DNA of 64,000 nt from Pyrenula massariospora (taxonomy: Eukaryota > Ascomycota > Eurotiomycetes > Pyrenulales > Pyrenulaceae). Below are positions 8,548 through 47,284 of this stretch, one piece after another. Positions within the stretch are counted from its first letter, which is position 1. Every line of letters begins with the position of its first letter. The translations under genes and the position numbers were made by a program. The DNA lies in NCBI GenBank assembly GCA_021030905.1, contig JAGFMI010000015.1:1054001-1118000 (forward strand). The letters are read 5' to 3'. The notes below the pieces were generated by a model. It was not told where the DNA came from and did not search any database. It worked only from the letters and a program-made list of their open reading frames with translations.

Positions 8548-9192
8548 AAGGCTCTGGATCATTCAGTATCGTCTTGCGATGAATAGCCTTTGTAAATTTA
8601 CTTGACCGTTGCTATCTGCAGAAGTACGCTTTCCTAAACCACGCGAATATTTCGTGCAATCAACTTCATCCACGTGAGTTAGATCTCGAGCTTGCCAAGG
8701 GACGTCCACATAGTTCAGTGTTGGTTGCATGATGTACAGGCACTAGATCCAGTCCTACTCGATATCGTACGCATAGGGCTCGAACATGTAGGGGCTATTG
8801 GTCAATGTAGACTGTTCCGTCGTTCTCCAAAAATAATCTACAATATCATGGTCTTAAAAAGCCGGATGTTCCGACGACTCTGCAAATTGCCTACTTGATA
8901 CCTAATAGAAAGAATCGTATGTTGATTACTTTCTCCCTGTTGGCTCTGCAAGTCATTACCTCGATCGACGGGTTTGTCCAAGACAAATGAGGAAGGAGAT
9001 ATCTCTCCGCCATGAAAAACGTCATTTACGATAGACCAAGACTCTTAAGACTGGAGATATACTATTGTATCCAAGACAAGATAAGATATTTTCCTCAGTG
9101 GTCTCTGCTATCACTTGTTTCACTTAAAGGGAAACGTAGTTTGCCATTCCTCCTTCTACTGTGTTGGTCTTACATTTCCATACCCGACCATA
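8548..9192. other. Intergenic spacer
   Basis: About 645 bases downstream of the MDR gene and upstream of the S28 peptidase. Short unconvincing frames only. Confidence 0.55.
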
Positions 9193-10995
9193 ATGTTACC
9201 GTTTGCCTTTTTGTTACTCTGCTCAATCGAGACCTTATGTGTAGCCGCAAATCAAAGAAATCTGCCTCTCAATGGCCTTCTCAGTCGCAGAGAAGCCTCA
9301 ATCAATGCCTCAGACTACCCTGCCCTTACTATCTCTATCCCTATTGATCACTTCAGCGACTCAGACAAGCGGACTTATTCCAATCGTTACTGGATCAATG
9401 CCACATACTATAAGCCGGGAGGACCTGTGTTCTATTTCGACTCTGGGGAACAGAATGCGCACCCGCTGGTGCCGTATTTTCTTGCGGAGGCGGCTGGACC
9501 ATCTGCTGTGATGACCTTAGCTCGGCGGTTTGAAGGGCTAGCTGTGATCTTTGAGCATCGCTTTTACGGCGACTTGACGGACGGTAGTTATCCTTTCGAA
9601 ATGAATTCCTCAACGGGATTTGCGAATGGGGGACAGGAGGCGTATAGGTACTTGGATACGGAACAGGCTCTGAGCGATCCAGTTTATTTTGCCAATCACT
9701 TCAGGCCGCCTAGCTTAAAAGATCACTGGTCAGGTCTCACACCGAATGCCACGCCTTGGATTTGGCTTGGAGGCAGCTACCCGGGAATACGTGGAGCCCA
9801 TTTGCGTGTTCGGAATCCTGAGACGTTCTACGCCACTTGGGCATCAAGTGCACCGACTCAGGCCGCCGTGGACATGTGGGTGTACTATGCCCAGGCTGAG
9901 CGAAGCATGACCCGGAATTGCTCTGCAGACTACACGGCTGTGACCAGATATGTTGATAACGTTCTAGCTACAGGCAGCAAGCAGGAAATTAGCGATCTCA
10001 AGTTTGCTCTTCAAAAAGCAATCCAGTCTAGCCCACGCGATCTGTCGCCCTCCGTCAATCGTACCGAAGCGGATGCGATGACCAATGAGGACGTGGGTTA
10101 CAATCTCCTGATACCGCTTAATTTCTACCAATACTATGGTTTTGGGAGGTCTATACTTCCATTCTGTGATATCGTGGAGACTCGAAATCGTACTCAGATA
10201 GCTACGACTGACAATGGAGGAACAGCTCAAGCAGTTGCGACAGAATCGGGATTGGCTGCGACCTACAACGTGTCTGTTGCATGGTCTTCATTTCTTACGG
10301 CACTGGCTCTGATCGATTACGATTCCATCTCTGGTACTGATGATCCCATAGCTGATATGTCCTGGACGTGGCAATACTGTTCGGAGTACGGTTACTACCA
10401 GCGCGGCAATCCGAATAATTCACACACAATCCAAAGTCGTTTCATCAGTATCGAATCCATTCAAGCAGGATGCAAGGACACGTATCCGTATGCTCCTGCA
10501 TCACCAAACATATCAGCATCTAATAAGTATGGCGGTTGGCACGTGAATCCATCTAACATCATGTTTACTAGCGGACAATTCGATCCATGGAGGACGCTAT
10601 CTCCAGCTTCGGAAGAATCAGAGCTCGGTGCACCAATGAGACAATCGGTACAGGTTATTCCGCAATGCAACATTGCGCCGCCTGAGGATCAAATCTTTGG
10701 GATCGTTCATCAAGGTATGGTCCATGTATCTGACATGCGGGCACTTCTGAACACGAGCGATGTAAATCACCAAAATTTCAGCACAGTCGGATTCAGCAGT
10801 CCGATCAGCACAGAGCCATTCTATGCGGGGACTGAGCTGTTCTCAATGGCCTTAGAGCAGTGGCTGCCATGCTTTGGTAATGGGTCACAACGAAAAGCTG
10901 CCACGAGCCTAGGATCGAAGATGGAAGGCTCCTGGGGAAGTCTGATTTGGGTATCCTTGTTGACGTTTTGGCATATTGTATGCTTGTATGGATAG
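9193..10995 (+). CDS. Secreted serine peptidase, family S28
   Basis: A predicted 600-residue prolyl-cleaving peptidase of the S28 family (the lysosomal Pro-X carboxypeptidase and fungal prolyl endopeptidase family). Met at 9193 is chosen because it opens a signal peptide (MLPFAFLLLCSIETLCVA); the frame upstream has no ATG. The nucleophile motif is GGSYPG (Ser about 195), followed by WASSAPTQA. The remaining catalytic elements lie in FTSGQFDPWRTL and in HQGMVHVSDMRALL. Several N-glycosylation sequons occur. The last 20 residues are hydrophobic (SLIWVSLLTFWHIVCLYG), which could be a GPI-anchor signal or a membrane tail. It probably acts outside the cell or at the wall in peptide nutrition. Confidence 0.9.
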   Translation: MLPFAFLLLCSIETLCVAANQRNLPLNGLLSRREASINASDYPALTISIPIDHFSDSDKRTYSNRYWINATYYKPGGPVFYFDSGEQNAHPLVPYFLAEAAGPSAVMTLARRFEGLAVIFEHRFYGDLTDGSYPFEMNSSTGFANGGQEAYRYLDTEQALSDPVYFANHFRPPSLKDHWSGLTPNATPWIWLGGSYPGIRGAHLRVRNPETFYATWASSAPTQAAVDMWVYYAQAERSMTRNCSADYTAVTRYVDNVLATGSKQEISDLKFALQKAIQSSPRDLSPSVNRTEADAMTNEDVGYNLLIPLNFYQYYGFGRSILPFCDIVETRNRTQIATTDNGGTAQAVATESGLAATYNVSVAWSSFLTALALIDYDSISGTDDPIADMSWTWQYCSEYGYYQRGNPNNSHTIQSRFISIESIQAGCKDTYPYAPASPNISASNKYGGWHVNPSNIMFTSGQFDPWRTLSPASEESELGAPMRQSVQVIPQCNIAPPEDQIFGIVHQGMVHVSDMRALLNTSDVNHQNFSTVGFSSPISTEPFYAGTELFSMALEQWLPCFGNGSQRKAATSLGSKMEGSWGSLIWVSLLTFWHIVCLYG

Positions 10996-29301: not shown

Positions 29302-29733
29302 GGCCTTTTAATGCTGTTGAGAAGCTGATGATATGTTTCGAGAGTAGAGGGATGTTAAATGTGGATCAGAAACCACTCGGTAGAATAGGACTTTGGTCTT
29401 TGTTATATATCGTCATCTCCTCGGCTTAGACTTAGCTATCTACACTCTAATGTAGTATGATTTTTATGGGATCAAACTTTTTGGGCTGGCTTGAAACAAA
29501 GCATTGCCGGCGGCAAAAGCGGTACTCATCCCGCTCACTGCCGCTAGAGCCACTTCGGTTCCTCTTTCGGTCGGGCAACAATCATCACCAGTCGTATTGT
29601 CGCCCCATCTTGAAGAGTTAAGAACCATCATATTTCCTCGGAGTGTCAGGATCATGTGTATCAATAGTGCAATCTCTCAAATACCCTCTATCATTAATTT
29701 ACATCAGAAGACACAGCAGTAACAGCCTCCAGC
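29302..29733. other. Shared divergent promoter, tautomerase / nitronate monooxygenase
   Basis: These 432 bases separate two start codons facing away from each other. A TATA-like box serves the minus-strand gene. Binding sites for the nearby Zn2Cys6 protein may lie here, but none could be assigned. Confidence 0.5.
29403..29409 (-). promoter_or_regulatory. TATA-like box, tautomerase gene
   Basis: TATATAA on the minus strand, about 100 bases upstream of the tautomerase ATG. By-eye call only. Confidence 0.35.
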
Positions 29734-30810
29734 ATGTCTACCCTACAAAGAGACTATTCCTGGATCACTTTCCCATTAATCGTCGCAGCTCCTATGAGAC
29801 TTATCACTCTTGCTCCTCTTGCCGTCGAAGTGTCAAAAGCGGGCGGTTTAGGTTTTCTCGGAGGTGGAGATGATCTCGGCACTCTTGAGACGCATCTTGA
29901 CCATGCTGCAAATCTGATCCAAGATGACTGGAGGCTGAAGGGTATGTATAAAGATACAGGAGTACTGCCGGTGGGGTTTGGAGTCTTGAATTGGGGCGCA
30001 GATCTTGATCTCGCCGTCACAGCTGTTAAAAAATGGACTCCTGCTGCGGTGTGGCTTTTTGCGCCACGTGAAGTGCGGGACCTCGCTGAATGGACGGAGA
30101 AGCTCAGGCTGCATGGGAAACGCAAGACGAAGATTTGGATTCAGACGGGAACCGTCTCCGATGCAATGGAAATCGCGAGGACCTGTAAGCCTGACGTTTT
30201 GGTCATTCAGGGCAACGATGCTGGAGGACATGGTCTCGAACTCGGCGCCAGCATTTTCACATTACTACCAGAGGTTAGGGATAACCTACAAAAACAAGAA
30301 TATGGGAACATATCTCTTTTTGCAGCAGGCGGTGTTGGTGATGGCCGTGGTGTTGCTGCGTCACTTATTCTTGGGGCAGAAGGAGTCGTACTAGGTACAC
30401 GGCTGCTAGCTACTACAGAGGCGAACATTGCAAGAGGTTATCAAAAGGCAATACTGGAAGCAAAAGATGGCGGTGTCAACACTGTGCGGACTAAGATTTA
30501 TGATCAGCTGAGAGGTATTAGTGGATGGCCAAAACTTTACGGTGGTAGAGGTGTTGTTAATTGGAGTTTCTTCGATCACAATGCTGGACTCTCCATGGAA
30601 GAGAATAAAAAACTTTACGAAGAATGTACTAACAGAGAAGACGAGGGGTTTGGTCCTCAAGGAAGGCTCACCACTTACGCTGGGACAGTGGTCGGATTGG
30701 TTGAATGTGTCAAAGGCGCTGGAGATGTTGTACGAGAGATACGAAAAGAAACCTTGAAACATTTGAAGGAAACTTACCTTCTGCTACAGTCCCGTGAAGC
30801 AAAGCTCTGA
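29734..30810 (+). CDS. Nitronate monooxygenase (2-nitropropane dioxygenase family)
   Basis: A 358-residue, single-exon FMN enzyme. Family hallmarks are FPLIVAAPMRLITLAPLAVE with the early KAGGLGFLGGG, then VLVIQGNDAGGHGLELGAS (catalytic-His and phosphate region), ISLFAAGGVGDGRGVAASL and GAEGVVLGTRLLATTEAN. These enzymes oxidise alkyl nitronates such as propionate-3-nitronate to aldehyde plus nitrite or nitrate, using O2. The flavohemoglobin 0.9 kb downstream on the same strand could deal with nitric oxide arising from nitrogen oxides. This grouping is inference from context. Confidence 0.9.
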   Translation: MSTLQRDYSWITFPLIVAAPMRLITLAPLAVEVSKAGGLGFLGGGDDLGTLETHLDHAANLIQDDWRLKGMYKDTGVLPVGFGVLNWGADLDLAVTAVKKWTPAAVWLFAPREVRDLAEWTEKLRLHGKRKTKIWIQTGTVSDAMEIARTCKPDVLVIQGNDAGGHGLELGASIFTLLPEVRDNLQKQEYGNISLFAAGGVGDGRGVAASLILGAEGVVLGTRLLATTEANIARGYQKAILEAKDGGVNTVRTKIYDQLRGISGWPKLYGGRGVVNWSFFDHNAGLSMEENKKLYEECTNREDEGFGPQGRLTTYAGTVVGLVECVKGAGDVVREIRKETLKHLKETYLLLQSREAKL

Positions 30811-31664
30811 GATTCACGCGACCTTGAGTACTCAGTCGCATGGAGGGGTCTAAGAGGAAGCTAAAATCTAGACCTTGAACAACGGATTAGAGACTTGCCT
30901 GAGAGATCACATGAAAGTGACATCTCTCCTGAATGAAACTATATATTTAGTATCATAGGGTTGTGAAGACCCGTTAGTCTTGGTTATGCTATCTAAAGGT
31001 TATTTTAATGATTGTGCCCCTCAACACTCTCATTAAGACAAACGGCTTTCGGCTTTTTAGCAGTGAAGAGTAGAATCTTCATTAAATTCTAGCTCATTGC
31101 TCTTTGTAACTTATCTCAGACTGCTTTATGGTCCAATACTTTCATGTACATACAGGCTTTGCTGGTGTTTGAAGGTAGCAGCTCTCTCACCAGTGGCTTT
31201 AAGCTACGACTGATCGAAGTCCTGAATCATGACAAATGATGGAGATGATAATGCAAGATTTTCTTGTTATATCACAATGAGTAGTCTGCGATCGGATTTA
31301 TGTGCAGGTGGGGCTCCGAGCTAGGGACAGGATTTCGCGTTACCGCTGTTGCCGACTTTGCCGCAACAGCCGTTTATCATGCCCTCCAACGCGGACAGCG
31401 TTCTGCATCTGGAACAAAACTGAGAGTCATTACTCGGTTTTTCGAAAAGCACTGCATATAAAGGAGCAAAAGACTTCAATATTTAGCGGTAATAGATGGC
31501 ACGATCATCCTCGGCATTTACGGCCTTTCTACATCTCAATTATATTCAATGTCCCTGCTTGGCTTTGTCTACCTCCAGCTATATTTCCCAGCGAATATCA
31601 CTTTGGATTCTCAAAGCTCATCAGATCGATATCCATTCTTTTTTATTAAGACTGCCTCTGCACC
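30811..31664. other. Intergenic region upstream of flavohemoglobin
   Basis: About 850 bases holding the 3' end of the nitronate monooxygenase transcript and the flavohemoglobin promoter, with TATAAA at 31457. No other gene. Confidence 0.55.
31457..31462 (+). promoter_or_regulatory. TATA box, flavohemoglobin gene
   Basis: GCATATAAAGG lies about 205 bases before the flavohemoglobin ATG. It fits an inducible promoter with a long leader. By-eye call. Confidence 0.4.
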
Positions 31665-32897
31665 ATGTTGCCTCCACAAACGATCTGTACCATCAAAGCA
31701 ACCTTGCCAGCCGTTCGTGATCACGGCATAGAAGTCACAAGAGTATTCTATCGCAATTTATTGACAGAACATTCAGATCTCAAAGAGATATTCAACCAAG
31801 GAAACCAGGTGACCGGTCATCAAGCACAAGCTCTCGCTGCTGCAGTCTACGCTTACGCTGAGAATATTGAAACACCCAAGGTCCTCGAGCCAACAATCAA
31901 GCACATCACGCAAAAGCACGCCTCACTGTTCATCCAGCCTGAGCATTATGATATTGTTGGCAAATATCTTCTTGATGCATTCGGCCTGGTTTTACGAGAA
32001 GCCTTCACCAGCCAGGTGCGAGATGCGTGGGCAGCAGCATACAGCGAGCTGGCGAAGACTATGATCAATGCTGAAGCCGAGCTGTACTACCAAGGAGGAG
32101 ACTGGACGGACTGGAGAGACTTTATCATCAAGGAAAAGACACCGGAGTCTTTGCAAATCACATCTCTGATTCTTAGCCCCGCCGATGGACGCCCTCTACC
32201 AGCCTATCTGCCGGGACAATACATATCCATTCGTGTTTTCGTTCCGAGTCTCAACTATAGCCAACCTAGGCAATATTCGTTAAGCGACAGCTACGTTGCT
32301 GAGCATTACCGCATCAGTGTCAAGAAAGAAACTGGAGTTAGCTCGAACGACGTCGCGCACCCTGGTCTCGTTTCTAATGCTCTCCATGGCCTGAAAGTGG
32401 GAGAAAAGGTGCAGCTTTCACGACCTTTTGGCAATTTCGCGCTAGACATAAGCAAGGACACTTCGAATCCGCTGGTGCTGATTTCGGCAGGTGTTGGCCT
32501 GACACCCATGATGTCCATGCTTAATACGGCTGTGGTAAGCGATCCCGGAAGGCCCATCACCTGGATACATGGATACCACGATATACAAACTAGCGCATTT
32601 AAAGACCATATTGACAGAATCGCGGAGTCTAATGACGCTGTCCACGTCATAAGATTTTGCAGTAAGCCTCGAGAACGAGAATTACTTGGCGTTGATTACG
32701 AACGGGTCGGTAGAGTAGATCTTGACAGCTGTGATGGTGAGAAGGACTTATTTTTGGGTGATGGTTCCACGAGATACTATGTATGCGGCCCGAACTCGTT
32801 CATGTCGAAGATACAGAAACAACTCAAGGACCGTGGCGTCGAGCCCAAAAGAATAGACATGGAACGGTTTGGAACAGGGAACGTACAGCTAGCCTAG
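31665..32897 (+). CDS. Flavohemoglobin (nitric oxide dioxygenase)
   Basis: A 410-residue, single-exon flavohemoglobin converting NO and O2 to nitrate with NAD(P)H. The globin domain (1 to about 145) has the B10 Tyr region VTRVFYRNLLTEH, the distal Gln helix around HQAQALAAAVYAYAENI and the proximal His in IKHITQKHASLFIQPEHY. The FAD domain has PGQYISIRV and SQPRQYSLSD. The NAD(P) domain has VLISAGVGLTPMMSML and YYVCGPNSFM. All domains are complete and in order, and no targeting signal is seen. The Zn2Cys6 regulator gene converges on it, with 187 bases between stop codons. Location beside nitronate monooxygenase suggests a nitrogen-oxide theme. Confidence 0.95.
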   Translation: MLPPQTICTIKATLPAVRDHGIEVTRVFYRNLLTEHSDLKEIFNQGNQVTGHQAQALAAAVYAYAENIETPKVLEPTIKHITQKHASLFIQPEHYDIVGKYLLDAFGLVLREAFTSQVRDAWAAAYSELAKTMINAEAELYYQGGDWTDWRDFIIKEKTPESLQITSLILSPADGRPLPAYLPGQYISIRVFVPSLNYSQPRQYSLSDSYVAEHYRISVKKETGVSSNDVAHPGLVSNALHGLKVGEKVQLSRPFGNFALDISKDTSNPLVLISAGVGLTPMMSMLNTAVVSDPGRPITWIHGYHDIQTSAFKDHIDRIAESNDAVHVIRFCSKPRERELLGVDYERVGRVDLDSCDGEKDLFLGDGSTRYYVCGPNSFMSKIQKQLKDRGVEPKRIDMERFGTGNVQLA

Positions 32898-33084: not shown

Positions 33085-34767
33085 CTAGGGAAATGCATCG
33101 CACAGGAAGCTATCAATGTCAAAATTTTGAAGATATGGAATGCTGGCAACAGCCTCATCAAGCCATAAGAAGTCCGTTGTGCTGCTGGATGGCTGTTGTT
33201 GTTGTGGGTCCATGAACACGGTATTTTCGAGATTTCTGGTTTCGGGTGTCTCGACAGGGTGCCGTCGTAGGACGTTGCCAAGTTTGGTGAAATCGGATTC
33301 TTTGCGTCTTTGATGTAATGAGATAATCAATGAGGCCGTTCGCACTGCCTCTTGTAAGGTTGGTGTTTTATATGTTATGGCAACGTTCTCAAGAGTTTGC
33401 ATCGCGTCTTCAAGCTGAGCAAGAGAGGTAGGCGTGTCTATAGCGAGTAGACTACAAACTACTTGGAACGGAACATTAGCTATATGATGCCATGGACTGC
33501 AAGCGTTAAGCATCGTCTGCGCTGAGCTAACAGCCCGTTTTGTCAAGGCCAGTATCTGATCTATCACTCTCTTAGAGCGCACGATATTCGCCGCTCGCAG
33601 TCGACGGTAAAAACACAACACGAGGTTACATTGCGCAAGGATTGATGGTGGCTCAGAATGGGTTCGCTCGAGAACTCTAGCTAATGCAAGCGCGAGTTCG
33701 TCAGTATCTGTTGGTTTGCCTGGATCAAGCATTTCAGAGTACGGCAGAAGGCCCAGAAGTTCGATCGTGTAGTCACCAGGTCTTTGGCAAGGTAAAATCG
33801 TTGTCGCATTCTGGAGGATCACTCTAGAGCAGCCTATGTCGAAGGATATCCAAATGTTAAGATGCTGCGCTACTCCATACAATCTTCGGCGCAGTTCATC
33901 ATTCACACTGCTTGAGGCAGGGTGTAGGATAGATTCTGCCGCAGGCTCACAGTGTAAGCCCGCAGCTTCTACAATATGCATCAGCAGAGAACTTGCCATC
34001 CATGCTTTGTGAGGCGAGCTCGTCATTCGCAGATAAGCGACGCGAAGGACCCAGGCGGTAACGGTGGAAAATTCCGGCACCTCAAATATTGTGCGCTCTA
34101 GATTAGTTCTTGCCGCTTCGGCGAGGCTAAGCTCCACCTCTGTCGATTGACATCGGGAAAACAAGCATCCAAGAGCTGCAACCCCGCAGAGCACAGCATC
34201 GTATCCATCTTTAACATGTGGTGAAGCCCACCTATGCTTAATGTGGCGATCCACGTCTTGGCGATCAATGAACCCGTAGCAAGGGTCAACCTTCTCGAAG
34301 TAAACCATAGCCAGTGTCTCCATCTCAAAGTTCGAGAGCAGGTTCGTAACAGAAGTTTCCGATGCGATGGCATGACCAGTCTCACGTGCTCCAAAGAAGA
34401 CATTCCAGGCAAAAAGATGCATGCGAGGTGCATTAATGGGATCAAGAGAGAGCGCTAATTCCCTTACAAAAGCTGCTCCGGAATTTACCTCCATGGAAAA
34501 CGGCTGATCGCGAGGATCTTTATTTCTCCCTATCTCTTCCAAGAGTATTTCTGACTGAGGTGGATCAAAGGTATGAGTCAGTGGCGCAGTGCTTCGCTTA
34601 GGATAAGGGGGCGAGCGCCCGCGCTTTGATCTGCTGTAATAGCATTCATATTCTAGATCATTGCAAGTCTGGCAAGGTTGGCCGCCACCACACTTCCGTT
34701 TGCGTTGCCTGCATGGCATACAAGCTAACTTGGACCGTTTGCGCTTTGAGATCGTGGGACTCGACAT
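33085..34767 (-). CDS. Zn2Cys6 (GAL4-type) transcription factor
   Basis: A 560-residue, single-exon fungal regulator. The zinc cluster is at residues 16-42: KLACMPCRQRKRKC, then GGGQPCQTCNDLEYEC, preceded by basic KRKRSK. A basic linker (SRSKRGRSPPYPKR) follows. The middle resembles the fungal-specific transcription-factor domain, for example VDPCYGFIDRQDVDRHI and AWVLRVAYLRMTSSPHKAWM. The C-terminus is rich in Gln, Ser and Thr (PQQQQPSSST) and may activate. It sits between the nitronate/NO genes and the RiPP-like genes, so it may regulate either group, both or neither. Confidence 0.9.
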   Translation of the reverse strand: MSSPTISKRKRSKLACMPCRQRKRKCGGGQPCQTCNDLEYECYYSRSKRGRSPPYPKRSTAPLTHTFDPPQSEILLEEIGRNKDPRDQPFSMEVNSGAAFVRELALSLDPINAPRMHLFAWNVFFGARETGHAIASETSVTNLLSNFEMETLAMVYFEKVDPCYGFIDRQDVDRHIKHRWASPHVKDGYDAVLCGVAALGCLFSRCQSTEVELSLAEAARTNLERTIFEVPEFSTVTAWVLRVAYLRMTSSPHKAWMASSLLMHIVEAAGLHCEPAAESILHPASSSVNDELRRRLYGVAQHLNIWISFDIGCSRVILQNATTILPCQRPGDYTIELLGLLPYSEMLDPGKPTDTDELALALARVLERTHSEPPSILAQCNLVLCFYRRLRAANIVRSKRVIDQILALTKRAVSSAQTMLNACSPWHHIANVPFQVVCSLLAIDTPTSLAQLEDAMQTLENVAITYKTPTLQEAVRTASLIISLHQRRKESDFTKLGNVLRRHPVETPETRNLENTVFMDPQQQQPSSSTTDFLWLDEAVASIPYLQNFDIDSFLCDAFP

Positions 34768-35658: not shown

Positions 35659-36690
35659 ATGAAAACGTCAACAAGTCTCTTACTGCTTGCCTCGATATAC
35701 TATGTTTTAGGGCAAGAAACATTCACTTATTGGGTTCATCGGTCATGCTTAGCTCGAGCGCGCAATGTTTTCCCAAGAGGTATGAAGGCAGCTGAACGGA
35801 TGGCAAATAGTGCGTTGTGGATGCTTGACAACAAGAACAACTTTTACAATGCATTCCTTTTTGAGAAGGTCTTCAACCTCTATCTAACTCACAGTGCGGG
35901 AGAAGCTATCGTTGACCGCCTTGAGGACATTCTGACCACTTTCGTCGTAATGCAGGACGAAACACCACCAGGTGGCGGGGTTGAGCCGATGGGGAAATTT
36001 CGGTATTACTGTGACGAAGATAATCTTGACGATCCGGCCTCACGGTGGGAACTTCGTCCGGATCCTCCAGTTTTGGAACGACATGCGGGATACATCTTGC
36101 AAAATGAACGACCAAGGTGGCCTCAGAAAAAATGGGGCCAGTCTCAAGAGTGGTGGGATCCAGTAAACAGAGTTATGATGGGTAACACGCTCGGCTGCCG
36201 AAGTTCTCGGGAAAATGAGAATAATCCTACCTTCAGCCGAACATACGATCCGACACCTATTTGGGCCTCTTTGCCCGGATATCCTAAAAAGCAAATTTTG
36301 GCCACTGTGACTATATGTGATGCCGCGCTTAACTCCAACGAACATCCATGTGTCGAAGATATTCCTTCTATTTTTGACTTCGGTCGACTTCTTGACCCGA
36401 TGTCACATCTCAGTAGTTTCACAAGCTCTGTTATTCTCCATGAGTATTGCCATTTCCCGCCGTGGAAGCTTGAGAACATTAGATCTCCAAATCCGGGTCC
36501 TTGGTCACAGGATAAAAAAGCCTTTGACTGGGCTGATGTACTTGACATTCAAAGTCCCTTCGATTCGATTCGGAAAGTCAATAGTATCGTGTATTATGCT
36601 CTTTTAGCCGTACTTAGAGATCCCCACTGGCGCTTGCCTATTGATGATGAAGAATCGTTCCGCAGCGGAAAGTTGGACAAGAAAGCGTAA
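35659..36690 (+). CDS. Secreted zincin-like metallopeptidase (HExxH)
   Basis: A 343-residue, single-exon protein. ATG at 35659 opens a signal peptide (MKTSTSLLLLASIYYVLGQ); the frame upstream has no ATG. It has a zincin motif, VILHEYCHFPPW at about 260-271, and a later FDWADVLDIQ, where an Asp could be the third zinc ligand, as in the deuterolysin (M35) and related aspzincin families. The assignment within zincins is tentative. Cysteines include CLARARN, YYCDEDN, LGCRSS, TICDAAL and HPCVED. The gene converges on the RiPP-like precursor gene, with 263 bases between stops. It may be a cluster peptidase or an ordinary secreted protease. Confidence 0.7.
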   Translation: MKTSTSLLLLASIYYVLGQETFTYWVHRSCLARARNVFPRGMKAAERMANSALWMLDNKNNFYNAFLFEKVFNLYLTHSAGEAIVDRLEDILTTFVVMQDETPPGGGVEPMGKFRYYCDEDNLDDPASRWELRPDPPVLERHAGYILQNERPRWPQKKWGQSQEWWDPVNRVMMGNTLGCRSSRENENNPTFSRTYDPTPIWASLPGYPKKQILATVTICDAALNSNEHPCVEDIPSIFDFGRLLDPMSHLSSFTSSVILHEYCHFPPWKLENIRSPNPGPWSQDKKAFDWADVLDIQSPFDSIRKVNSIVYYALLAVLRDPHWRLPIDDEESFRSGKLDKKA

Positions 36691-36953: not shown

Positions 36954-37483
36954 TTACTCTTGTGATAAGTAATCGCTGGCTGCTTGCGTTTGCTGTTCGT
37001 CAGTACCTCTTACTCTCGGATTATGGCGATATCAACAGAAGTGATGGAATGTGGCGGGGAGGATTGGAGCGTTGGAGATTTGAGAGCAGGTTGAGGGCAA
37101 AGTCCTAGGGGGGACAGCATACCGTAGTCACTTGTCTTGCGCTTGTAATCCGTGGAAGTGTAGTCGCTTGGGACACGCTTGTAGTCCGGTGAAGCATAGT
37201 CGCTTGCTTCACGCTTATAGTCTGTGGGAGCGTAGTCGGGGCTATAGTCTTGGCCGAGCAAAGTAGTATCAGCTTATGCTTCGAAGAAGAATTTGTTTTA
37301 GGCAATACCATAATCGGCTGCTATACGTTTGTAGTCGGAAGGCCTGTAATCGGATCTTGTACCTTTGTTGTGCGTATCAGCTTCTCCTCAAGTGTTGGAG
37401 AATTCTGTGTCGGGTAACTTACTGAGAGGGGCCGCAGCAACGGAGCTTACTAGGACTGAGAGAATAACTTTGGTGTAGTACAT
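36954..37483 (-). CDS. Putative Kex2-processed RiPP (dikaritin-like) precursor, DYxxxDY repeats
   Basis: Four exons are inferred: 37423-37483, 37309-37362, 37123-37248 and 36954-36982, total 270 bases, 89 residues. Exon 1 encodes a signal peptide (MYYTKVILSVLVSSVAAA). Four Lys-Arg sites then divide the rest into segments: PLSTRSDYRPSDY, IAADYDYSPDYAPTDY, EASDYASPDY, VPSDYTSTDY and KTSDYAASDYLSQE. Each segment holds a DYxxxDY core, with the spacer varying. This is the layout of ustiloxin/phomopsin/asperipin precursors: leader, repeated Tyr-containing cores, Kex2 sites. All three introns are phase 1. Introns 1 and 2 are both exactly 60 bases with GCTGATAC branch-like motifs; all three use AAG acceptors, which is unusual. 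Exon 3 alone (three KR sites) is directly open. The tyrosinase gene is divergent, 955 bases away. Other secreted Kex2-repeat proteins (pheromone, wall peptide) remain possible. Confidence 0.72.
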
Positions 37484-38438
37484 GGTTTAGAAAGGTAAAA
37501 ATGGCCAATAATGGGGGTTGTTTGAGAAGTAGAATCAGTCGAATGAAAAAAGGATTGCGTTTGGACAAGGAGCCGTGATCACGCTTGTTCCTGCACTGAT
37601 ATTTAAACTTCTGTGTCGGCTGTGCAAAACTACTGCCCTTCGCTCCCACTGCTCGCGCTCGGATCCGCTATCGCAGCTTCCCAATCAGGCAATTTCATGA
37701 TGGTGGTGGACATGGCCGCTGTGACCATGCTCGAAAGGGTAGCGGTGACATCACTGAATGTGAGTCCAGGACACTCCGAAGTTGCAACGATCTCGAAAGG
37801 ATTGCTTCATAGTATGATGGGATGACGTGAACGCTTTGCTTTTAGTACCCAGTGATCGGTCCGGAGGAGCGTTTGCGCCAAGGCATTCTGGGACGACGTA
37901 ATACTTTCCTCAGATGTGTATCCGATCCCTTCGGTAGCACGGAGAAAGGGTTGGCATAGAATGACAACGTGGCGCAGTTGTTGCACTTTGATAGTGTCGA
38001 AAGCTTTTCCGTGCCGGATAAGGCGAGACCTACGCTTGCGCAAGAGCGGGATGTGGTGCATTAGTTGGTCCATCCCGCCGTCGGCGGAGAACGGCCTGGT
38101 CTATCTAGCTTCAATGTCATTACGATGCAACATCATTCGACTAAAGGCCGTGCAAGGCGAGAGACCGCCACGGCACGTCGGTGGCTTGCATCTGTTAGGA
38201 AAGTTGAAGCTGATGTCCACTTGATGCCCACTTGATGCCTATCTTATCGATCCACCGATGATGCTTGGTATTTGCTTAGCATAGCATGCTCACGAGGAGG
38301 CGATGTGTTGATCCCAATGTCTTCAATACTTCGGCTTAAGCCATTTGACGACCTTCCTCCTCTTTTAAGACTGTTTGACTCTGGGACACGGAATTGCACG
38401 TAAGAATTTCATACTGTTTTACTTTCTCGCCTGCTGTA
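37484..38438. other. Shared upstream region, precursor / tyrosinase, with decayed minus-strand frame
   Basis: About 955 bases between two divergent starts. Most of it, 37625-38090 on the minus strand, is one reading frame interrupted by stops, for example one between RSRHPIIL and SNPFEIVATSECPGL. Pieces such as MDQLMHHIPLLRKR and IKVQQLRHVVILCQ have a spacing faintly like the two HxxHC blocks of UstY proteins, but the diagnostic His-Cys pairs are missing. I regard it as a possible decayed gene of unknown family. Confidence 0.35.
37600..37607 (-). promoter_or_regulatory. TATA-like box, RiPP-like precursor gene
   Basis: TTTAAATA on the minus strand, about 120 bases upstream of the precursor ATG at 37483. 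This distance suits a fungal TATA element. Weak by itself, but it supports the chosen start. Confidence 0.3.
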
Positions 38439-39724
38439 ATGTATCAAAATAAACCTCTCCAATCTGATTATGTTCTTCTTGGCTCCAAAGCTGACCACAT
38501 CGCCCGAAATGAGTACTCTGATGGCTGGGAGGAGAAGTCGAGGATAAGAGCTTGGAACTCCTTTTCTGTTGTCGTTATAGCTCTGATTTGTCTCGCCATT
38601 GGTATTACTGGCGGTTTACTGCTAAATGATTGGGAATGGAATGACCGCAGCTTGCAAGCTTCATTAGTGTCGACGAACATTTCCCATTGTCGACAAAGCT
38701 CGGTGAGGCACGAATGGCGCAGTATGAGCATGAAGGAGAAGCACGACTACATCGATGCCGTCAATTGCTTGCGCAGAAAACCGTCGAGGCTAGGCCTGAA
38801 TCAGTCTCTATACGATGACTTCCCTTACACGCACGCTAGAATAGGCGCATATTGTGAGCAGTCATACGATCTGATCATGTCACATTTACAAAAGGCTAAC
38901 CGGTGACAACTCTCAGCCCATCATTCAGCAGCCTTCCTAGCATGGCACCGATACTTTCTCCACGTTTACGAGCGGGCCTTAAAGGAGGAATGCCAATATG
39001 AAGGGCACCTGACGTGAGTTGAGGGAGCCCCAAGCCTTATAGCAGCAATTCTGACAGCCGCTTAGCTTCTGGGATTGGGCGATGGACTGGGAAGATCTCG
39101 CGCAGGCACCGGTCTGGTCCTCTACACACGGCTTCGGCGGCACTGGCAACCCCAACGCCAGCAACAAGATCCTAGAGGGTTATTGCGTGACGACCGGGCC
39201 GTTTGCCAACCTATCGGTGACGTACATCAAGGAGGATTTCCAGCCTCACTGCCTTTCGCGCGGTTTCCTCCACACCGCAGCGCTCCGTAAGACCGGCACG
39301 CGCTACCGTCCAGCGGCGCTAGATAACATTCTCCAAAGTCCAGACTACGACGCTTTCAACTTAGGGCTGGAAGAAGGACCGCACAACGCAATTCCGAACA
39401 GCATCCAAGGCGATTTCTCGATGTTTACTGCTCCGGCAGGTATGTGTAACTCCCACCTCTGACACTCATTGCGGGACTTATGTTTATGACTCATCACTAG
39501 ACCCTGTCTTTTTCCTCCACCATACGCAGCTTGATCGGCTCTGGTGGACGTGGCAAGGCTTCAATGACTCCAGTCACAAGTGGGAATACATGGGCCTTGC
39601 TGCACATGAATCGGAAAAGAATGCTGCGTTGGATGATTTATTGCCCATGAAGGGGCTAGCACCAGACATCAGAGTATCGGAGATCATGGACACGGAGTCG
39701 GGCTTTCTTTGCTATCGATACTAA
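38439..39724 (+). CDS. Membrane-anchored tyrosinase, UstQ-like
   Basis: Four exons: 38439-38853, 38917-39013, 39066-39439 and 39501-39724; 369 residues, all junctions in frame. After a short cytosolic part, a membrane helix lies at about 41-62 (SFSVVVIALICLAIGITGGL). The type-3 copper domain follows: CuA at YDDFPYTHARIGAY (His132), HHSAAFLAWHRYFLHVYERA (His140/141, His149), then FWDWAMDWEDL. CuB ligands are in the GPHNAIPNSIQGDF and DPVFFLHHTQLDRLWWTW regions. The N-terminal anchor, size and RREWRS/EKxxYIDAV-like start (HEWRSMSMKEKHDYIDAVNC) match UstQ/PhomQ tyrosinases of dikaritin pathways. Those hydroxylate or couple Tyr residues of the core peptide. The precursor next door is Tyr-rich, which fits well. 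Confidence 0.88.
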
Positions 39725-40091: not shown

Positions 40092-41521
40092 CTATAGCAT
40101 CGCTTCGATGATTCCTTCCGCATCATCCTCGTACGGCGATGTCCAGATATTGATGATTTTGAGCCCCACAGACTCAATCAGGTCTACCCATTGACGTTGA
40201 TCCCTCTGCATCCCACTCAAGATCGCCATCATATTAATGTCGTTGGTCGCGAACCACGAGGAGCACCCGCGATCCGGCAACACTCCTTCATTGAGTAAGA
40301 TTTTAGAGTATCCGGGCTTCATGGCACCCATCATCTGGCGCAGTATGACGCGGCATTCTTCGTCTGGCCAGTCATGCAAACAAAAGTGCATATAGTAGAT
40401 TCTAGCTCCTAGCAATCTCGAATCAGTAGCCATTCTCCGCCGAGTTGGCCTTCTAAAACCTACCTATGACCGGCTGCTTGGTGAAGAAATCGTACTCCAT
40501 AGCCGTGATACCGTTATTGAGACCCTTGCCTTCTAGCCCTGTGATCGTAGTCCTGAGGTCCTGCAATACTAGGTATCCCGCGACCCTTGGGTGTTTCTGA
40601 ATAAGTGTCTCGAGATCGTGCCCGTTGCCGCCGCCAATATCAACCAGTAGCACCTCACCTTGCTGAAATCCAAATCCATCTATCACTCGCTCCTCCACGT
40701 CGTACCAATCTGCCCAAAATTTGCGACCGCCGCGGATAGCCCCCATGAAGGCATTGAAAGCTTTCATACCCGTAGGCGACTGGTGGATCTTTTCAAAATA
40801 CTTCAGGTTCGTCTGATGGACCCACTGGAAAGGACTATCACCGCTATCGGTTGGGCAGCGGTAGCCTTTCGCCTTGAAAAAATCTGCTAGTTGACCGGTA
40901 GCACCATAATCGTACGTGGTAATCATTGCCCCCTCCCACGATGGCTCCGTCATCGCTAGGGTGTAGGGTGTGGGAAGGTACGATCGAACGCCATCTTCCT
41001 GGGCGAACGAGATGCTACAGAGGACGCGCATCACACGAACTGTGCGTCGATTCCGTTAGCCAGGTTGTCCGGTCGAGCATGTCGGTTACTACCACTAGAA
41101 AGAATCGAGGCGAGGAGGTACTGTGTTCTTACTGATTAATAATTCCTCCCCTCCGGTCTGGTTGGCTAGCTCCGTGGATGTGAGCGGACCCTGTGCTGCG
41201 GTCAAGAGGTGGAAAATGCGGAGGTCGACGCCAACTTTCAAGCATACACGCTGGGCTAGTAGCTTTTAATATCCATTATTAGTCTGAGGGCTGTGTCAGT
41301 ATTCGTAAAGCAATCAAAGTACTTACCACGTTGGCAAAGCGCATGATGACCTCCTCCGGCTTTTCTAACGCCGTGACGACTTCTCGGGCCGCCTTCAACG
41401 CTGCTTTACGAGCCTCGTCGGAATCAGCGCCGGCGTCGATCGCTATCGCTCTCAACTGGAGAGTTTTGACCAGAGAACTGATTTCTTGACTTTTGGTAGA
41501 CATAGTATAGGCGACTGACAA
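40092..41521 (-). CDS. SAM-dependent O-methyltransferase (plant COMT-like fungal family)
   Basis: Four exons: 41327-41521, 41133-41262, 40464-41039 and 40092-40408; 405 residues. The N-terminal dimerisation/winged-helix part has LKVGVDLRIFHLLTAAQGPL and STELANQTGGEELLIIRVMR. The SAM site is VLLVDIGGGNGHDLETLIQK, then VLQDL. The C-terminal block is YYMHFCLHDWPDEECRVIL, with LHDWPDE typical of secondary-metabolite O-methyltransferases. The first intron needs an AAG acceptor, because the two CAG choices give stops. A start at the second Met (41503) is possible. It may methylate a phenol produced by the tyrosinase, a plausible but unproved pairing. Confidence 0.88.
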
Positions 41522-42327: not shown

Positions 42328-44068
42328 CTACGTAATTGAGAGTCGATGTACATCGCTTTTGGCCGTCCAAGTCCGCATCCGCTTCCCGAAAATCCAAAAC
42401 CCACCCGCCAAAACAAGCCACAAGATCAGGATACACATGTTGGTCATGAACACCGGCAAATAACCTGAGCTCATAACCCATGGAGCGATAAACTCGGATA
42501 TGCCGTATCCGTATACGTGCTTGACAATGATAATGGAGACGAAGATATAACCGGCGGCAGCCTTGTATGAATCTACGGCGTATGTTGCAGAAATGGAGGG
42601 CAGAGCAGCCACTGTGATACCTGCGATCCCGAACCCGACAATGACGACTGCCTGTGGGTGAAATCAATTCGTTAGTCATCAGGCTCTATTAGGGAAAGAA
42701 TCTGGTAAGGTATTTCTCACTCTCCAGTCCCATTGATTTTGCAGACCAAACGCTGTAACAAAATTCCCGATAATCATTAGAGCGGCGTACGGAGCTATGG
42801 CCAGCAGCCTCATCTCCGGCTCTCTAACGCCATTATTCCTCGCCGTCAGCTTGGCACTGACCCAATCACTAAAGGGACCGGCAGTGAGAAGACCAACCAG
42901 GGCGCCAATCAAAGAGGCAAAATTAGTATAACCGATCGATGCGGGATCGAAATTGTAGGGGGGTACGGCGAAAACACGTGCTTGGACGAACGTGATCATA
43001 AGATAGCAATTGCTCGCAAAAGTAACGACGAGAGCGGCCCAGAGCGTGATGGGAAAGAGCAAAAGCTTGAAGGGAAAATAAAAGCCCATTACGAGTTTGA
43101 GCCATGGTTTCGTGTTCCACACTAGGACACTGAATTGGTGTCTTTTAGGTTTGCCGTTGCCTACGTGGATATCGGTGTTGTTCTCTTCCACTGCAAGCTC
43201 CGCTTTGGAACTTGTTTCCGACGTTTGGCTGGCCATTGTCTCCTCAGCGGCTACGTTGTGCTGGGAGTTCGTATCCTGAGCGCTTGGTCGATGGTACATT
43301 GTTTCCGGAAAAGCACCAAGCACAATGACGAAAGCAAAAATGTTGATGGCTGCATTCATCCACCAGAAGCTACGCCATCCATACCTTTGCGCCATAACCC
43401 CCTGTAGTGTAGGTCCTAACTGCATTCAATTAGCGCTCTCATTGAGCCTGTCAGGGAACCAATGTTTGAGACTCACTATAGTCGAGCCGTATAGAATGGC
43501 AAAGTAAAGGGTGTTGTAGAAGCCACGTTCATGCAGAAACATAACATCTGCTACTATAAGGGGACCCATAGATTCGCCAGGAGAACCTCCTATCCCGGAC
43601 AAGATGGCAGCTCCATAGAAGCTGTTGTACGATGTAGCCTTCGCGCGCCAGATGCAGCTGCCTATTAGAATGGCAGTAGACGCTAGATAAGCGAATCGAC
43701 GACCATATATGTACGCAATGGTAATCCTATATAGTTAGAACCATGATTCTAAGTACAGCCTCGAAGACAAAATAGAGCACATACCAGATGAAGTTGCTGA
43801 ATCCCAAAATTAAGATCGTCACACCAGTGAACTTCACTACACCGTTGAGGTCGGATCCAAACTCCTCCGCCAGAAGCGGAAAAATAGGCGCGATGGCCAA
43901 TGGACCCAAAATCTGAGTGAAGGAGGTCAACATGCTAGAGCCCACAGCGCAAAATTTCCACCAGGGACTCCAATTGAGAGGGTCGCCTGGGTCGCTGCAG
44001 GGCTGGGGGACAAGAACTGTTCTGTTGCTTTGACTCTTGACAAAGTGATGCTGGCCCACGTCGGTCAT
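42328..44068 (-). CDS. MFS transporter, drug/metabolite exporter type
   Basis: Four exons are inferred: 43785-44068, 43477-43726, 42721-43419 and 42328-42651, at least 518 residues. It opens MTDVGQHHFVKSQSNRTVLV, then PQPCSDPGDPLNWS, the usual preface of this fungal MFS group. Twelve membrane segments follow around two six-helix halves with a charged central loop. Motif A-like YIYGRRFAYLAS and the GPTLQGVMAQRYGWRSFWW block are seen. A coding-looking stretch upstream (44069-44130, ELECEIHTVIVPGTEI) suggests a further 5' exon that I could not place with confidence. Placement beside the tyrosinase and methyltransferase suits product export; a DHA-type efflux role is inferred. Confidence 0.85.
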
Positions 44069-46054
44069 TATTTCGGTGCCAGGTACGATGACAGTATGGA
44101 TCTCGCATTCGAGCTCGCTGAGAGCCTACAGACATCATTGTAGCTGATCAGTAAAGATATCATGCTTACACAGATATGAATCTGTGTATGGCGCTGAAGT
44201 AACATTGAAAAGATGGAGGCTCTGCGTACTCACTACTCTGGAATGATTCATTTCCATTTTGATAGAGACGCTTGAAGAGCGCCTGATCTTGCTGTCCCTC
44301 TTGAAACTTGTGGCTGAATCGAAGAATCTCTAAGAAAATTATCGTTTGATTCAGAGTAACCATAATCGAAAGGAAGGCAAAGACCCTCTAGATATCTTCC
44401 ACGTGGAACGATGTGGAGCATAAATTGTCAGGCCTTGGTTGCTTACTACAAGGCGCCATACGGCAAACAGTGTACTAGGTAGTATGATGGTTTAAGCGGC
44501 TGATGGCCCGCTTTTTAGTGTTCTTTTGGGCCGCCCAGATCCAAGTTCATGTAAGTACCACCCTTAGGCCCTAGTAAACGGGGCAGTTGTCTCTCAGAAT
44601 TGTCTACAAAGGGCGTAGCTGGGGTTTCAACGCCTTCTTTAGTGGGGAAATTTGAAGCAGTCCTCATTCAGCTTGTTCAAAAATAGAAAACCGCGTGAAT
44701 TTTGTTGCTAGATGAATTCGAGGCGGTGATCGACTGCCCATTCCTGCGTATCGGATCATACTGGCCGAAACACAGGAGGGCAAATTTTGATTCAATAGTA
44801 CAGAGTGAGCAGAATGTTCTTACCCTCTCATGGGCGCCGCTGACGGTCAGGCGGACCATTAGTCTATAGATAAGGCCAGGCAAGCTACCTTTAGATGTGT
44901 GGCAGCAGGTTTTCGTTATGACGACGAGTGTTCATTGGGATCGGCGAAGCAAGGACGAATGGGAGCGTCACTTCGCCTACGATTCAAAGTAGCTTATTTG
45001 CAGGGGTCGCGAGTTAGTGACTGGTTGCTGTGCGGCTCCGGTGTGACAGTACTTTCAGGATTGTGACAGGTTAGTGAGTAGTGTGGCCAAATTGACCGGG
45101 AAGTAAGGAAAACAAATGCCGATTGTTATCAATGATGAAGTTTAAAGACGGGAGCACAACATCGGTCCGTTCCGTTACGATCGGAGACAGTATTCGCCCA
45201 TATGGTGTGGTAATACACTTCACAGTGAAACGTTGTACGGTGTTTCTTATTTCTTTTTTCTCGGAGCTAGTGCTGGAAGGGGTGGGTGGGTCACCTTGCT
45301 AGCGCTGCATTAGCCAAATATTCTGTTTGAGGATTGCCATGCACCTTGTCATGGCTTAATTGGCCTAGGACTAGATTTTGCTTCTTTTGACCTCAGCTCC
45401 GCAAACAAAGGTTGTGACGTTGGAGTTTCCAGCGCACTACGCTGCCCGAGATTGTATCAGAGATCGTCTCCTCAGATGTAGGCAACCCTGCTCTTGATCT
45501 TTAGTAGTATTTGGCTAGAGCCGCTTTTGTGAGGCATCTTTACGTTGAACTTGACCGTGCGCAATCGTCTCTGCATGAGGCTTTTGACTAGGATGACCCA
45601 ATGTACTTGAATAACCACCCAGTGAGCTTTAGAAGTGCATGAGAGAAGCGGCTTTTGAGGTGAGAGCAGGAAGACTTGCGTCACCAATGATCTCTACCTA
45701 ACGGACTGATACATGAGTAGTATTAACGAAAATCTCAAGCTGATGCCCTAGAGCGTAAAGAGTAAGACTGCTCTCGGACATGAGGAGGATCAGATAATAG
45801 CGAGATAGTTGATAAGGTAGAATAGAGAAGTAGAAGTAAAAGGTTGTATGACTTGATGCGTCATCTATAATAACTCTGCTGCTCGACTACGAGCAATAAA
45901 CAAGGATCAAAGCACATGTTGACTTCCTCTCTGTGTGTGCTTTGCGTCAAGGGCTTCTAGTTATAATGCTACGTATCTTCTCCTGTCAAGGAATTGGAGA
46001 GTAGGGCGTATGAACTGCGTCTTCTTTGTCTCTTCCACTTCCCTGCGACTTACT
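44069..46054. other. Long intergenic region
   Basis: About 2 kb. The left end (to about 44360) may include a missing first exon of the MFS gene: a 43-codon open stretch from 44363 could join ELECEIHTV by a gtacgc donor, but this is weak. The rest, to the decarboxylase gene, has no recognisable content. Confidence 0.45.
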
Positions 46055-47284
46055 ATGGCGTTTCTAGCCCGCTTTATTCCTTCTATGGTTTCGTCGCTTG
46101 TTTCTCATGTAAATTATCACCCAATAGTACAAGAGCTGGCGGAGTGGGTCTCTTCCTCCTCCGAACGTGTTGCTGATTTCGACGCTGCCATCCGAACCGC
46201 TACCTCTCAGAACATCCGCGAGATTTCTTCGATTAAGTCCTTCCAGGATTACCTTGATTTCCTCTCCTCCACGCTTTCGTGGTTACCATCAGAAAATGTC
46301 ACCGGGACTGTCATCTTTGACCATTTCGGCGTCTTTTACTTCATCCTGTCGCAGCCTTCAATTGCCTCCTATCTCTCGCCAATAACACCATCACGACGCT
46401 ATAATGCTCCACCTACTTTCCTATCTGCTTGGATTGTGCGCTATGGCCAAAGTATTGGTACTTGGATGGACACACCCGCCTCAATATCGTCCACCACGCT
46501 GGCTGCTTTCCGCGAGTGTCCCGCATTCCATGTCGAGGACTACCTCGAGCCACGCGGCGGCTGGCGTTCTTTTAACGACTTTTTCGCCCGTCAATTCAAG
46601 CCTGGCATGCGTCCGGTAGCGTACGTAGCCGACAATAGTTGTATAGTGGCGCCCACCGACTTTATGTACCTTGGTAAGCTGCCTATCACCGCCGAAGGCA
46701 CCGTGGTACTAAAGGGCTTGACGTGGCGTGTTCGCGAGCTGGTTGCCGACAGCCCGTACGCGGAGCGTTTTTGCGGTGGTGTCTGGCTGCATGGCTATCT
46801 GGGTACAAATGACTACCACCGGATCCATACCCCCGTCGGCGGCCGTGTCGTCGAAGCGCGGAGAGTGCTTGGGCTACACCACACCGAGATCGTGTCCAAA
46901 GAAGTCGAGAATGATTCCAAGTTGGCCATAGAAAGTGTAAGACACGAGGAGCAGAATGAAATGCCGATACGAAGGCTAGAGAAACGACGAATTTTTGACT
47001 GTCCAAATGAGATTGGATACCAGATTTTTCAGTCGAGAGGACTGGTAATGCTGGAAACTGAGATCGGTATGGTTGCCGTAGTACCGGTAGGAATGGCGGT
47101 TGTGTCTAGCGTGATGCTGACGGCCGAGGTTGGCGTAGAGTTGAGAAAGGGTGAAGAGTTAGGCTATTTTCAATTCGGGGGCAGTGATATGGTGCTTTTA
47201 TTCGAGGCTGCGACGCAAATGAACATAACCGCAGTCGTAGGAAAACACTACAATATGGGATCAGAGATTGGCCAAATAATTTGA
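46055..47284 (+). CDS. Phosphatidylserine-decarboxylase-family enzyme (pyruvoyl-type, possibly soluble amino-acid decarboxylase)
   Basis: A 409-residue protein from ATG 46055 (upstream ATG 46010 is possible), single exon. It has the fungal N-terminal preface domain (about 1-160), then the PSD fold: GWRSFNDFFARQFKPGMRPV, HGYLGTNDYHRIHTPVGGRV and ETEIGMVAVVPVGMAVVSS. It ends with the maturation site YFQFGGSDMVLLFE, in which Ser would become the pyruvoyl cofactor after self-cleavage. Membrane PSDs usually have LGST. A GGS site and a soluble preface are known from relatives such as the Psilocybe tryptophan decarboxylase, so a small-molecule decarboxylase is plausible. The substrate is unknown, and a lipid decarboxylase cannot be excluded. 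Confidence 0.82.
   Translation: MAFLARFIPSMVSSLVSHVNYHPIVQELAEWVSSSSERVADFDAAIRTATSQNIREISSIKSFQDYLDFLSSTLSWLPSENVTGTVIFDHFGVFYFILSQPSIASYLSPITPSRRYNAPPTFLSAWIVRYGQSIGTWMDTPASISSTTLAAFRECPAFHVEDYLEPRGGWRSFNDFFARQFKPGMRPVAYVADNSCIVAPTDFMYLGKLPITAEGTVVLKGLTWRVRELVADSPYAERFCGGVWLHGYLGTNDYHRIHTPVGGRVVEARRVLGLHHTEIVSKEVENDSKLAIESVRHEEQNEMPIRRLEKRRIFDCPNEIGYQIFQSRGLVMLETEIGMVAVVPVGMAVVSSVMLTAEVGVELRKGEELGYFQFGGSDMVLLFEAATQMNITAVVGKHYNMGSEIGQII

Follow-up and report, generated by a model that had tools for sequence, protein, structure and literature searches.

A Putative Secreted DYxxxDY Repeat Precursor beside a UstQ-like Tyrosinase on a Pyrenula massariospora Contig without a UstYa Match

UstYa/DUF3328 proteins are considered the ring-forming enzymes of the dikaritins. 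What, then, is made at a locus where a secreted, Tyr-rich precursor and a tyrosinase lie side by side on a contig without a UstYa match? The locus is in Pyrenula massariospora (assembly of 37.8 Mb in 33 contigs), on contig JAGFMI010000015.1 (C6; 1122464 bp). The window, meaning the whole 64-kb stretch of DNA analyzed, is positions 1054001-1118000 of this contig, and coordinates below are counted within it unless a contig is named. The reading that we favor, with a probability of about 0.5, is a compact secreted-peptide pathway that is related to those of the dikaritins, is free of UstYa, and would, by its predicted chemistry, give DOPA-type SDYxxxDY peptides.

The precursor gene lies on the minus strand, from an ATG at 37483 to a stop codon at 36954, and its spliced product is 89 residues long. 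Translation of a four-exon model yields MYYTKVILSVLVSSVAAAPLSTRSDYRPSDYKR-IAADYDYSPDYAPTDYKR-EASDYASPDYKR-VPSDYTSTDYKR-KTSDYAASDYLSQE, which confirms the original prediction of a minus-strand gene encoding a signal peptide and five segments separated by four KR sites. Exon 1 (37423..37483) contains the start codon and encodes the signal peptide MYYTKVILSVLVSSVAAAPLS (called by eye, not with SignalP); it is followed by a GTAAGT donor and an intron with an in-frame TGA. Exon 2 (37309..37362) encodes (T)R-SDYRPSDY-KR-IAADY. Exon 3 (37123..37248), which is also found by a KR-repeat scan, encodes (D)YSPDYAPTDY-KR-EASDYASPDY-KR-VPSDYTSTDY-KR-KTSDY, and a probable exon 4 (36954..36982), whose acceptor choice is uncertain, ends the protein with AASDYLSQE and the stop codon.

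The earlier proposal of four exons and three introns holds up in part. Each of the first two introns spans 60 nt and has in-frame stops and a branch-like sequence, GCTGATAC; the third is longer, at 140 nt, and carries TACTGAC as its branch site; on these features, a four-exon model is plausible. The acceptors, on the other hand, are atypical. All three modeled introns end in AAG, a rare acceptor in this genome that is used by 1 of 13 homology-guided introns at six tyrosinase loci and by none of the three introns in the model of the window's own tyrosinase. In intron 3, the acceptor is also ambiguous. A nearer one, AACAG, is the first AG past the branch site, and its use would change the tail to ANASSQRLLITRVTK, unrelated to AASDYLSQE; a further CAG, 3 nt on, would delete one Ala (read by eye). 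Given the rarity of AAG acceptors and the nearer CAG in intron 3, the fifth core is probable rather than certain.

The repeat structure itself is far beyond chance, and the gene, judged by sequence, is real. Unspliced, the window contains four DYxxxDY matches, all in one frame and each followed by KR. When a 64-kb sequence is simulated 200 times with a first-order Markov model (not by exact shuffling), DYxxxDY occurs on average 0.07 times (maximum 2) and DYxxxDY followed by KR 0.005 times (maximum 1); close DYxxxDY pairs number three in the window versus none in every simulation. The product contains 12 Asp and 14 Tyr, two of the latter in the leader, and has neither Cys nor Trp. Every Asp and every post-leader Tyr belongs to one of 12 DY pairs. 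Two Asp-preceded Tyr had been claimed for each segment; the pairing with Asp is complete after the leader, but segment 2 (IAADYDYSPDYAPTDY) holds four Tyr. The five DY cores differ from one another and are of the (S/P)DYxxxDY type. In any pair of the four KR-ended units, 2-5 of the 7-8 identical residues are encoded by different codons, and both TCC and AGC are used for Ser at identical residues. This synonymous variation, with the amino acids kept, is better explained by selection on the peptide than by recent DNA duplication. With an apparent ER signal peptide followed by similar KR-separated units, the translated precursor falls within the definition of a KEX2-processed repeat protein (KEP).

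At E<=0.1, none of the 21 word-sharing candidates in a set of 5.8 billion proteins matched the precursor, and a genome search at E<=10 gave no paralogue, its three matches being the gene's own exons. The KR-repeat homologues for which a protein search with the 89-residue product had been suggested thus did not appear. A DY/EY-rich scan across the UstYa-linked tyrosinase loci of the genome (described below) found the window alone. The view that DYxxxDY is unlike the described dikaritin cores agrees with the common EDYXI core published for ustiloxins and phomopsins (PMC6339444), whose core ring joins Tyr and Ile (PMC7329392). Among the titles and abstract openings of the open-licence literature, no UstYa-free tyrosinase RiPP was recognized; supplementary tables may list a DYxxxDY KEP.

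A tyrosinase gene (38439..39724, plus strand; exons 38439-38853, 38917-39013, 39066-39439, and 39501-39724) lies head to head with the precursor gene, and the two are transcribed divergently from a shared upstream region of 955 bp (37484..38438). A search of this region for a shared regulatory motif gave nothing convincing, only short, unremarkable repeats. The encoded protein of 369 residues matches PF00264 at 1.3e-37 and is related to UstQ and PhomQ. Among the matches listed (the best 120 of 229), BLAST gives 40% identity over 89% of the query to PhomQ1' of Diaporthe leptostromiformis (P0102) and 46% identity over 78% of the query to a protein named ustQ from Fulvia fulva (P0085); the named homologues come from several ascomycete groups and include a number from lichen fungi. 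MAFFT aligns the window tyrosinase, PhomQ1', and the named ustQ end to end, with a hydrophobic N-terminal anchor in each. In the window protein, a basic N-terminus accompanies the single membrane anchor (by eye), and the domain that follows has five N-glycosylation sequons. The anchor and the sequons together suggest that the catalytic domain lies on the lumenal side, where the precursor would also be.

A quick tree of 127 rows groups the tyrosinase with P0034 and P0056, both metagenome proteins, at a support of 94. When sets covering at most half of the rows are considered, no fork that contains it has a support of 95 or more; PhomQ1' and the named ustQ sit in other clades. The protein belongs to a broad UstQ-like group, within which its exact placement is unsure and only moderately supported. 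Where the haemocyanins have HNxIH, the tyrosinase has HNAIP, placing a Pro at the second CuB-His column. The same Pro is present in PhomQ1' and the named ustQ in the MAFFT alignment, in 5 of the 6 UstYa-linked tyrosinases of the same genome, and in 100 of the 120 matches listed of 229 (the others being 9 Ser, 7 His, and 4 other residues).

Directly beyond the tyrosinase are an O-methyltransferase gene and then an MFS transporter gene. The first (40095..41503, minus strand) is a spliced model of about 400 residues of the COMT type, with Dimerisation and Methyltransf_2 matches (PF08100, 3.7e-7; PF00891, 1.8e-18) and no evident signal peptide. The second (42330..44068, ends approximate, minus strand) is a spliced model of about 501 residues (PF07690, 1.7e-19). 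On the other side of the precursor, a Zn2Cys6 fungal transcription factor (33085..34767, minus strand; PF00172, 3.3e-9; PF04082, 2.1e-9) is a possible regulator and a candidate cluster member. The original prediction was silent on the adjoining tyrosinase, tailoring methyltransferase, and transporter. Its idea of a hidden RiPP precursor is strengthened by the secreted Kex2-type repeats and by these tailoring genes, but the implied dikaritin membership is not, as UstYa has no match on the contig.

Even with the cut-off relaxed to E<=10, a profile search for UstYa (PF11807) finds nothing on the 1.12-Mb contig, and the nine HxxHC matches in a six-frame scan of the window include none that is UstYa-like by eye. 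Across the genome, UstYa matches at exon level number 82 with E<=0.001 and rise to 95 with E<=10, and C6 has none of them. Given so many matches, the genome looks rich in fungal RiPP clusters. PF00264 has 26 matches in 14 places of the genome, of which one (C29:1942165) was left out of the comparison with the window tyrosinase and two (L022 and L025) gave no match at E<1. Seven other loci encode close relatives of the window tyrosinase (tblastn E<1e-40), and for six of these (on C28, C1, C11, C4, C8, and C7), UstYa is matched at a distance of about 2 to 8 kb. At the seventh, C11:1876336-1876782 (L018, L052), the second CuB-His column holds Ser; UstYa has no match in the vicinity, and the 10 kb around the gene contains no KR repeat. 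Thus, a tyrosinase of this kind without UstYa beside it is uncommon in this genome, not unique. Among the tyrosinases compared from the genome, the window enzyme is closer to the UstYa-linked ones than to the others. Unspliced scans, which intron-containing precursors would escape, reveal KR-repeat precursors beside two of the six UstYa-linked tyrosinases: (EVGYAYTTVEEKR)n at C11 2989585-2990229 (L036) and (DVESPFYKR)n at C4 511833-512483 (L039). Other frames from the KR scan at these loci (Arg-rich frames and a two-unit repeat in C8) were dismissed by eye.

These comparisons bear on the alternative that survives best, a true dikaritin whose DYxxxDY cores would be closed into Tyr-ether macrocycles by a UstYa-type cyclase acting in trans from another place in the genome. 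Genes of a fungal pathway usually lie together, and a distant cyclase fits poorly with the finding that six of the seven close tyrosinase relatives have UstYa within about 8 kb while this 1.12 Mb has none. The cores also do not have the Ile found at the +2 position of the ustiloxin and phomopsin rings (PMC7329392). What speaks for the idea is the large pool of 95 exon-level UstYa matches, a tyrosinase related to enzymes used with UstYa, the Asp-Tyr that is common to the EDYXI core (PMC6339444), and the XA/XP dipeptides after KR, which two UstYa-linked precursors of the genome also have. On balance, we consider action in trans unlikely, though worth keeping in mind. Neither a UstYa gene in the cluster nor an EDYXI core was found, and the locus is therefore not filed as a dikaritin locus. 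The Tyr-ether macrocycle first suggested for the paired Tyr is, with no UstYa match on the contig, an unsupported conjecture.

The residues that follow the KR sites are relevant to a second alternative, in which the precursor is a pheromone-like or signaling KEP whose linear, unmodified peptides are released by Kex2, Kex1, and STE13, and the tyrosinase is a chance neighbor. XA or XP follows three of the four KR sites (IA, EA, and VP), and KT follows the fourth. According to Le Marquer et al., KEPs with this STE13 signature are good peptide-hormone candidates, and a passage of their paper describes the signature as absent from toxic cyclic peptides and epichloecyclins (PMC6339444). In addition, 6120 of 7878 KEPs are without DUF3328 neighbors (PMC7329392). 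The precursor resembles alpha-pheromone-type KEPs in its signal peptide and its XA/XP after KR. However, the two UstYa-linked precursors of the same genome carry XA/XP after 7 of 11 and 4 of 15 KR sites. Thus, the signature is not special to pheromone-like KEPs here, was rejected as a mark separating the locus from dikaritins, and neither excludes a dikaritin nor makes the locus a pheromone gene. Trimming by a STE13-like enzyme is possible. The precursor differs from pheromones in having neither the two-Cys nor the PYGXPXG core (PMC6339444), and its units differ rather than repeating one peptide nearly identically. Beyond the leader, no Tyr stands outside a DY pair, and chance would leave the head-to-head tyrosinase, the O-methyltransferase, and the MFS transporter unexplained. 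An unmodified signaling peptide is accordingly a poor fit, and we think it quite unlikely. Least probable, indeed very unlikely, is a structural or pigment substrate whose DOPA-rich peptides become quinones and are cross-linked into the cell wall or a melanin-like polymer: a tyrosinase does lie beside a Tyr-rich secreted precursor, and the KEP Rep1 of Ustilago maydis yields peptides that become attached to hyphae (PMC6339444), but a pathway with a transporter and an O-methyltransferase is more in keeping with a discrete small molecule, and the window tyrosinase is more like the UstYa-linked enzymes than like the rest of those compared.

What the sequence shows is how the genes are arranged, the repeats, the class of the tyrosinase, and that no UstYa match lies on the contig; each cleavage, modification, membrane placement, and biological use in the favored UstYa-free pathway is a prediction. 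The locus probably works like the first half of a dikaritin pathway. The general role of Kex1 is KR trimming, and that of COMT-type enzymes is O-methylation of the catechol/phenol type. The precursor would enter the secretory pathway, Kex2 would cleave after each KR, and Kex1 would remove the KR; a STE13-like dipeptidyl aminopeptidase may then strip IA, EA, and VP to leave SDYxxxDY-type peptides. The membrane-anchored tyrosinase, with its catalytic domain in the lumen, would oxidize Asp-preceded Tyr to DOPA, a catechol. This chemistry has at least a candidate enzyme beside the precursor, and the Asp before Tyr, common to EDYXI, may be a feature that the tyrosinase recognizes. The O-methyltransferase may methylate DOPA, and the MFS protein would export the product, which is predicted to be a small family of Asp-rich bis-DOPA peptides, linear or at most joined by catechol-derived cross-links. 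Two catechols and two carboxylates on an eight-residue peptide would make a reasonable metal ligand or could serve redox chemistry. A more specific version, which we put forward tentatively and hold to be rather doubtful, is that a UstQ/PhomQ-related tyrosinase without UstYa gives bis-catechol (DOPA/methoxy-DOPA) octapeptides that act as a ribosomal catechol metallophore or redox peptide and stand between the linear pheromone-like KEPs and the cyclic dikaritins.

The locus has much in common with the dikaritins ustiloxin and phomopsin, including the signal peptide, KR-delimited repeats, Asp-preceded Tyr, a related tyrosinase, and a methyltransferase and transporter nearby. It differs from them in that its contig has no UstYa/DUF3328 match, its core is DYxxxDY instead of EDYXI, and its precursor gene has three modeled introns. 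The Kex2-processed, Tyr-containing repeats are shared with the asperipin-2a type and with the epichloecyclins. The latter rely on a UstYa homologue. Asperipin-2a has the UstYa homologue AprY without a tyrosinase (PMC6514808), the reverse of the tyrosinase without UstYa seen here. PhomM methylates the N-terminal amino group (PMC6514808), whereas the Pfam matches of the enzyme here indicate a COMT-type O-methyltransferase. Lichen RiPP Clan R1 likewise has a tyrosinase and an O-methyltransferase as conserved accessory genes, but it also has two DUF3328 (UstY-type) genes and an FGE-sulfatase (PMC12048977); no FGE-sulfatase match was found in the 34 ORFs scanned of the window's 115 of at least 100 residues.

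Several points weigh against a pathway free of UstYa. In ustiloxin biosynthesis, ustQ, ustYa, and ustYb are each essential for the first intermediate (PMC6514808), which leaves unproven whether such a tyrosinase acts by itself, and the same review reports DUF3328 proteins in all of the dikaritin-type clusters surveyed. The Pro at the second CuB-His position sets the window tyrosinase apart from haemocyanins and classic tyrosinases. Among the 15 genes nearest to each of 7878 KEPs, 341 tyrosinase genes were counted, with no peak where DUF3328 is absent (PMC7329392), and this also argues against the reading, as tyrosinase genes are not enriched there. The lack of an evident signal peptide in the O-methyltransferase model, the placement of PhomQ1' and the named ustQ in other clades of the tree, and the second close relative without UstYa nearby, on C11, count against it as well. 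Finally, a UstYa protein from another locus could contribute in trans.

If the UstYa-free reading is true, the locus might yield a modified peptide of a kind not yet familiar, and a natural tyrosinase cluster without UstYa would let the tyrosinase's own peptide chemistry be read directly. UstYa/DUF3328 has been used as a hook for fungal RiPP mining, which gave 94 clusters in Aspergilli (PMC6514808); with such a hook, UstYa-free clusters could be missed. Such a pathway would be relevant, too, to the idea that the earliest KEPs were linear and unmodified, with modified cyclic forms arising afterwards (PMC7329392).

Convergent with the precursor gene is a gene for a secreted protein of 343 residues with an HExxH-like HEYCH motif (35659..36687, plus strand). 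This putative peptidase has only two homologues at E<=0.001 in a search of 5.8 billion proteins and no Pfam match above the cut-off, and its family has 121 matching places in the genome (E<=0.1), 22 of which, its own included, span at least 290 of the 343 residues. HE[FY]CH is kept in 5 of 6 aligned members, and the proteins may represent an undescribed, expanded metallopeptidase-like family. A role as the dedicated processing protease was considered and rejected, as the size of the genome family argues otherwise; with so many relatives, the protein is probably not specific to the cluster. An S41 peptidase and a zinc-finger regulator are features looked for in dikaritin clusters. The same 34 scanned ORFs gave no S41 peptidase match, an S28 peptidase is far from the cluster, at 9085-10992, and the Zn2Cys6 factor described above is the candidate for such a regulator. 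The genome has a proprotein-convertase P-domain match (PF01483, 1.0e-14) with one internal stop, which counts in favor of Kex2-type processing in the favored pathway. Beyond the transporter, at 45935-47284 (plus strand), is a phosphatidylserine-decarboxylase-family protein (PF02666, 5.8e-42). This family includes amino-acid decarboxylases, and a C-terminal Tyr is a conceivable substrate of the protein, which may also be unrelated. A nitronate monooxygenase gene adjoins a flavohaemoglobin gene at 29698-32894 (plus strand), and the two are possibly a nitronate/nitric oxide detoxification pair.
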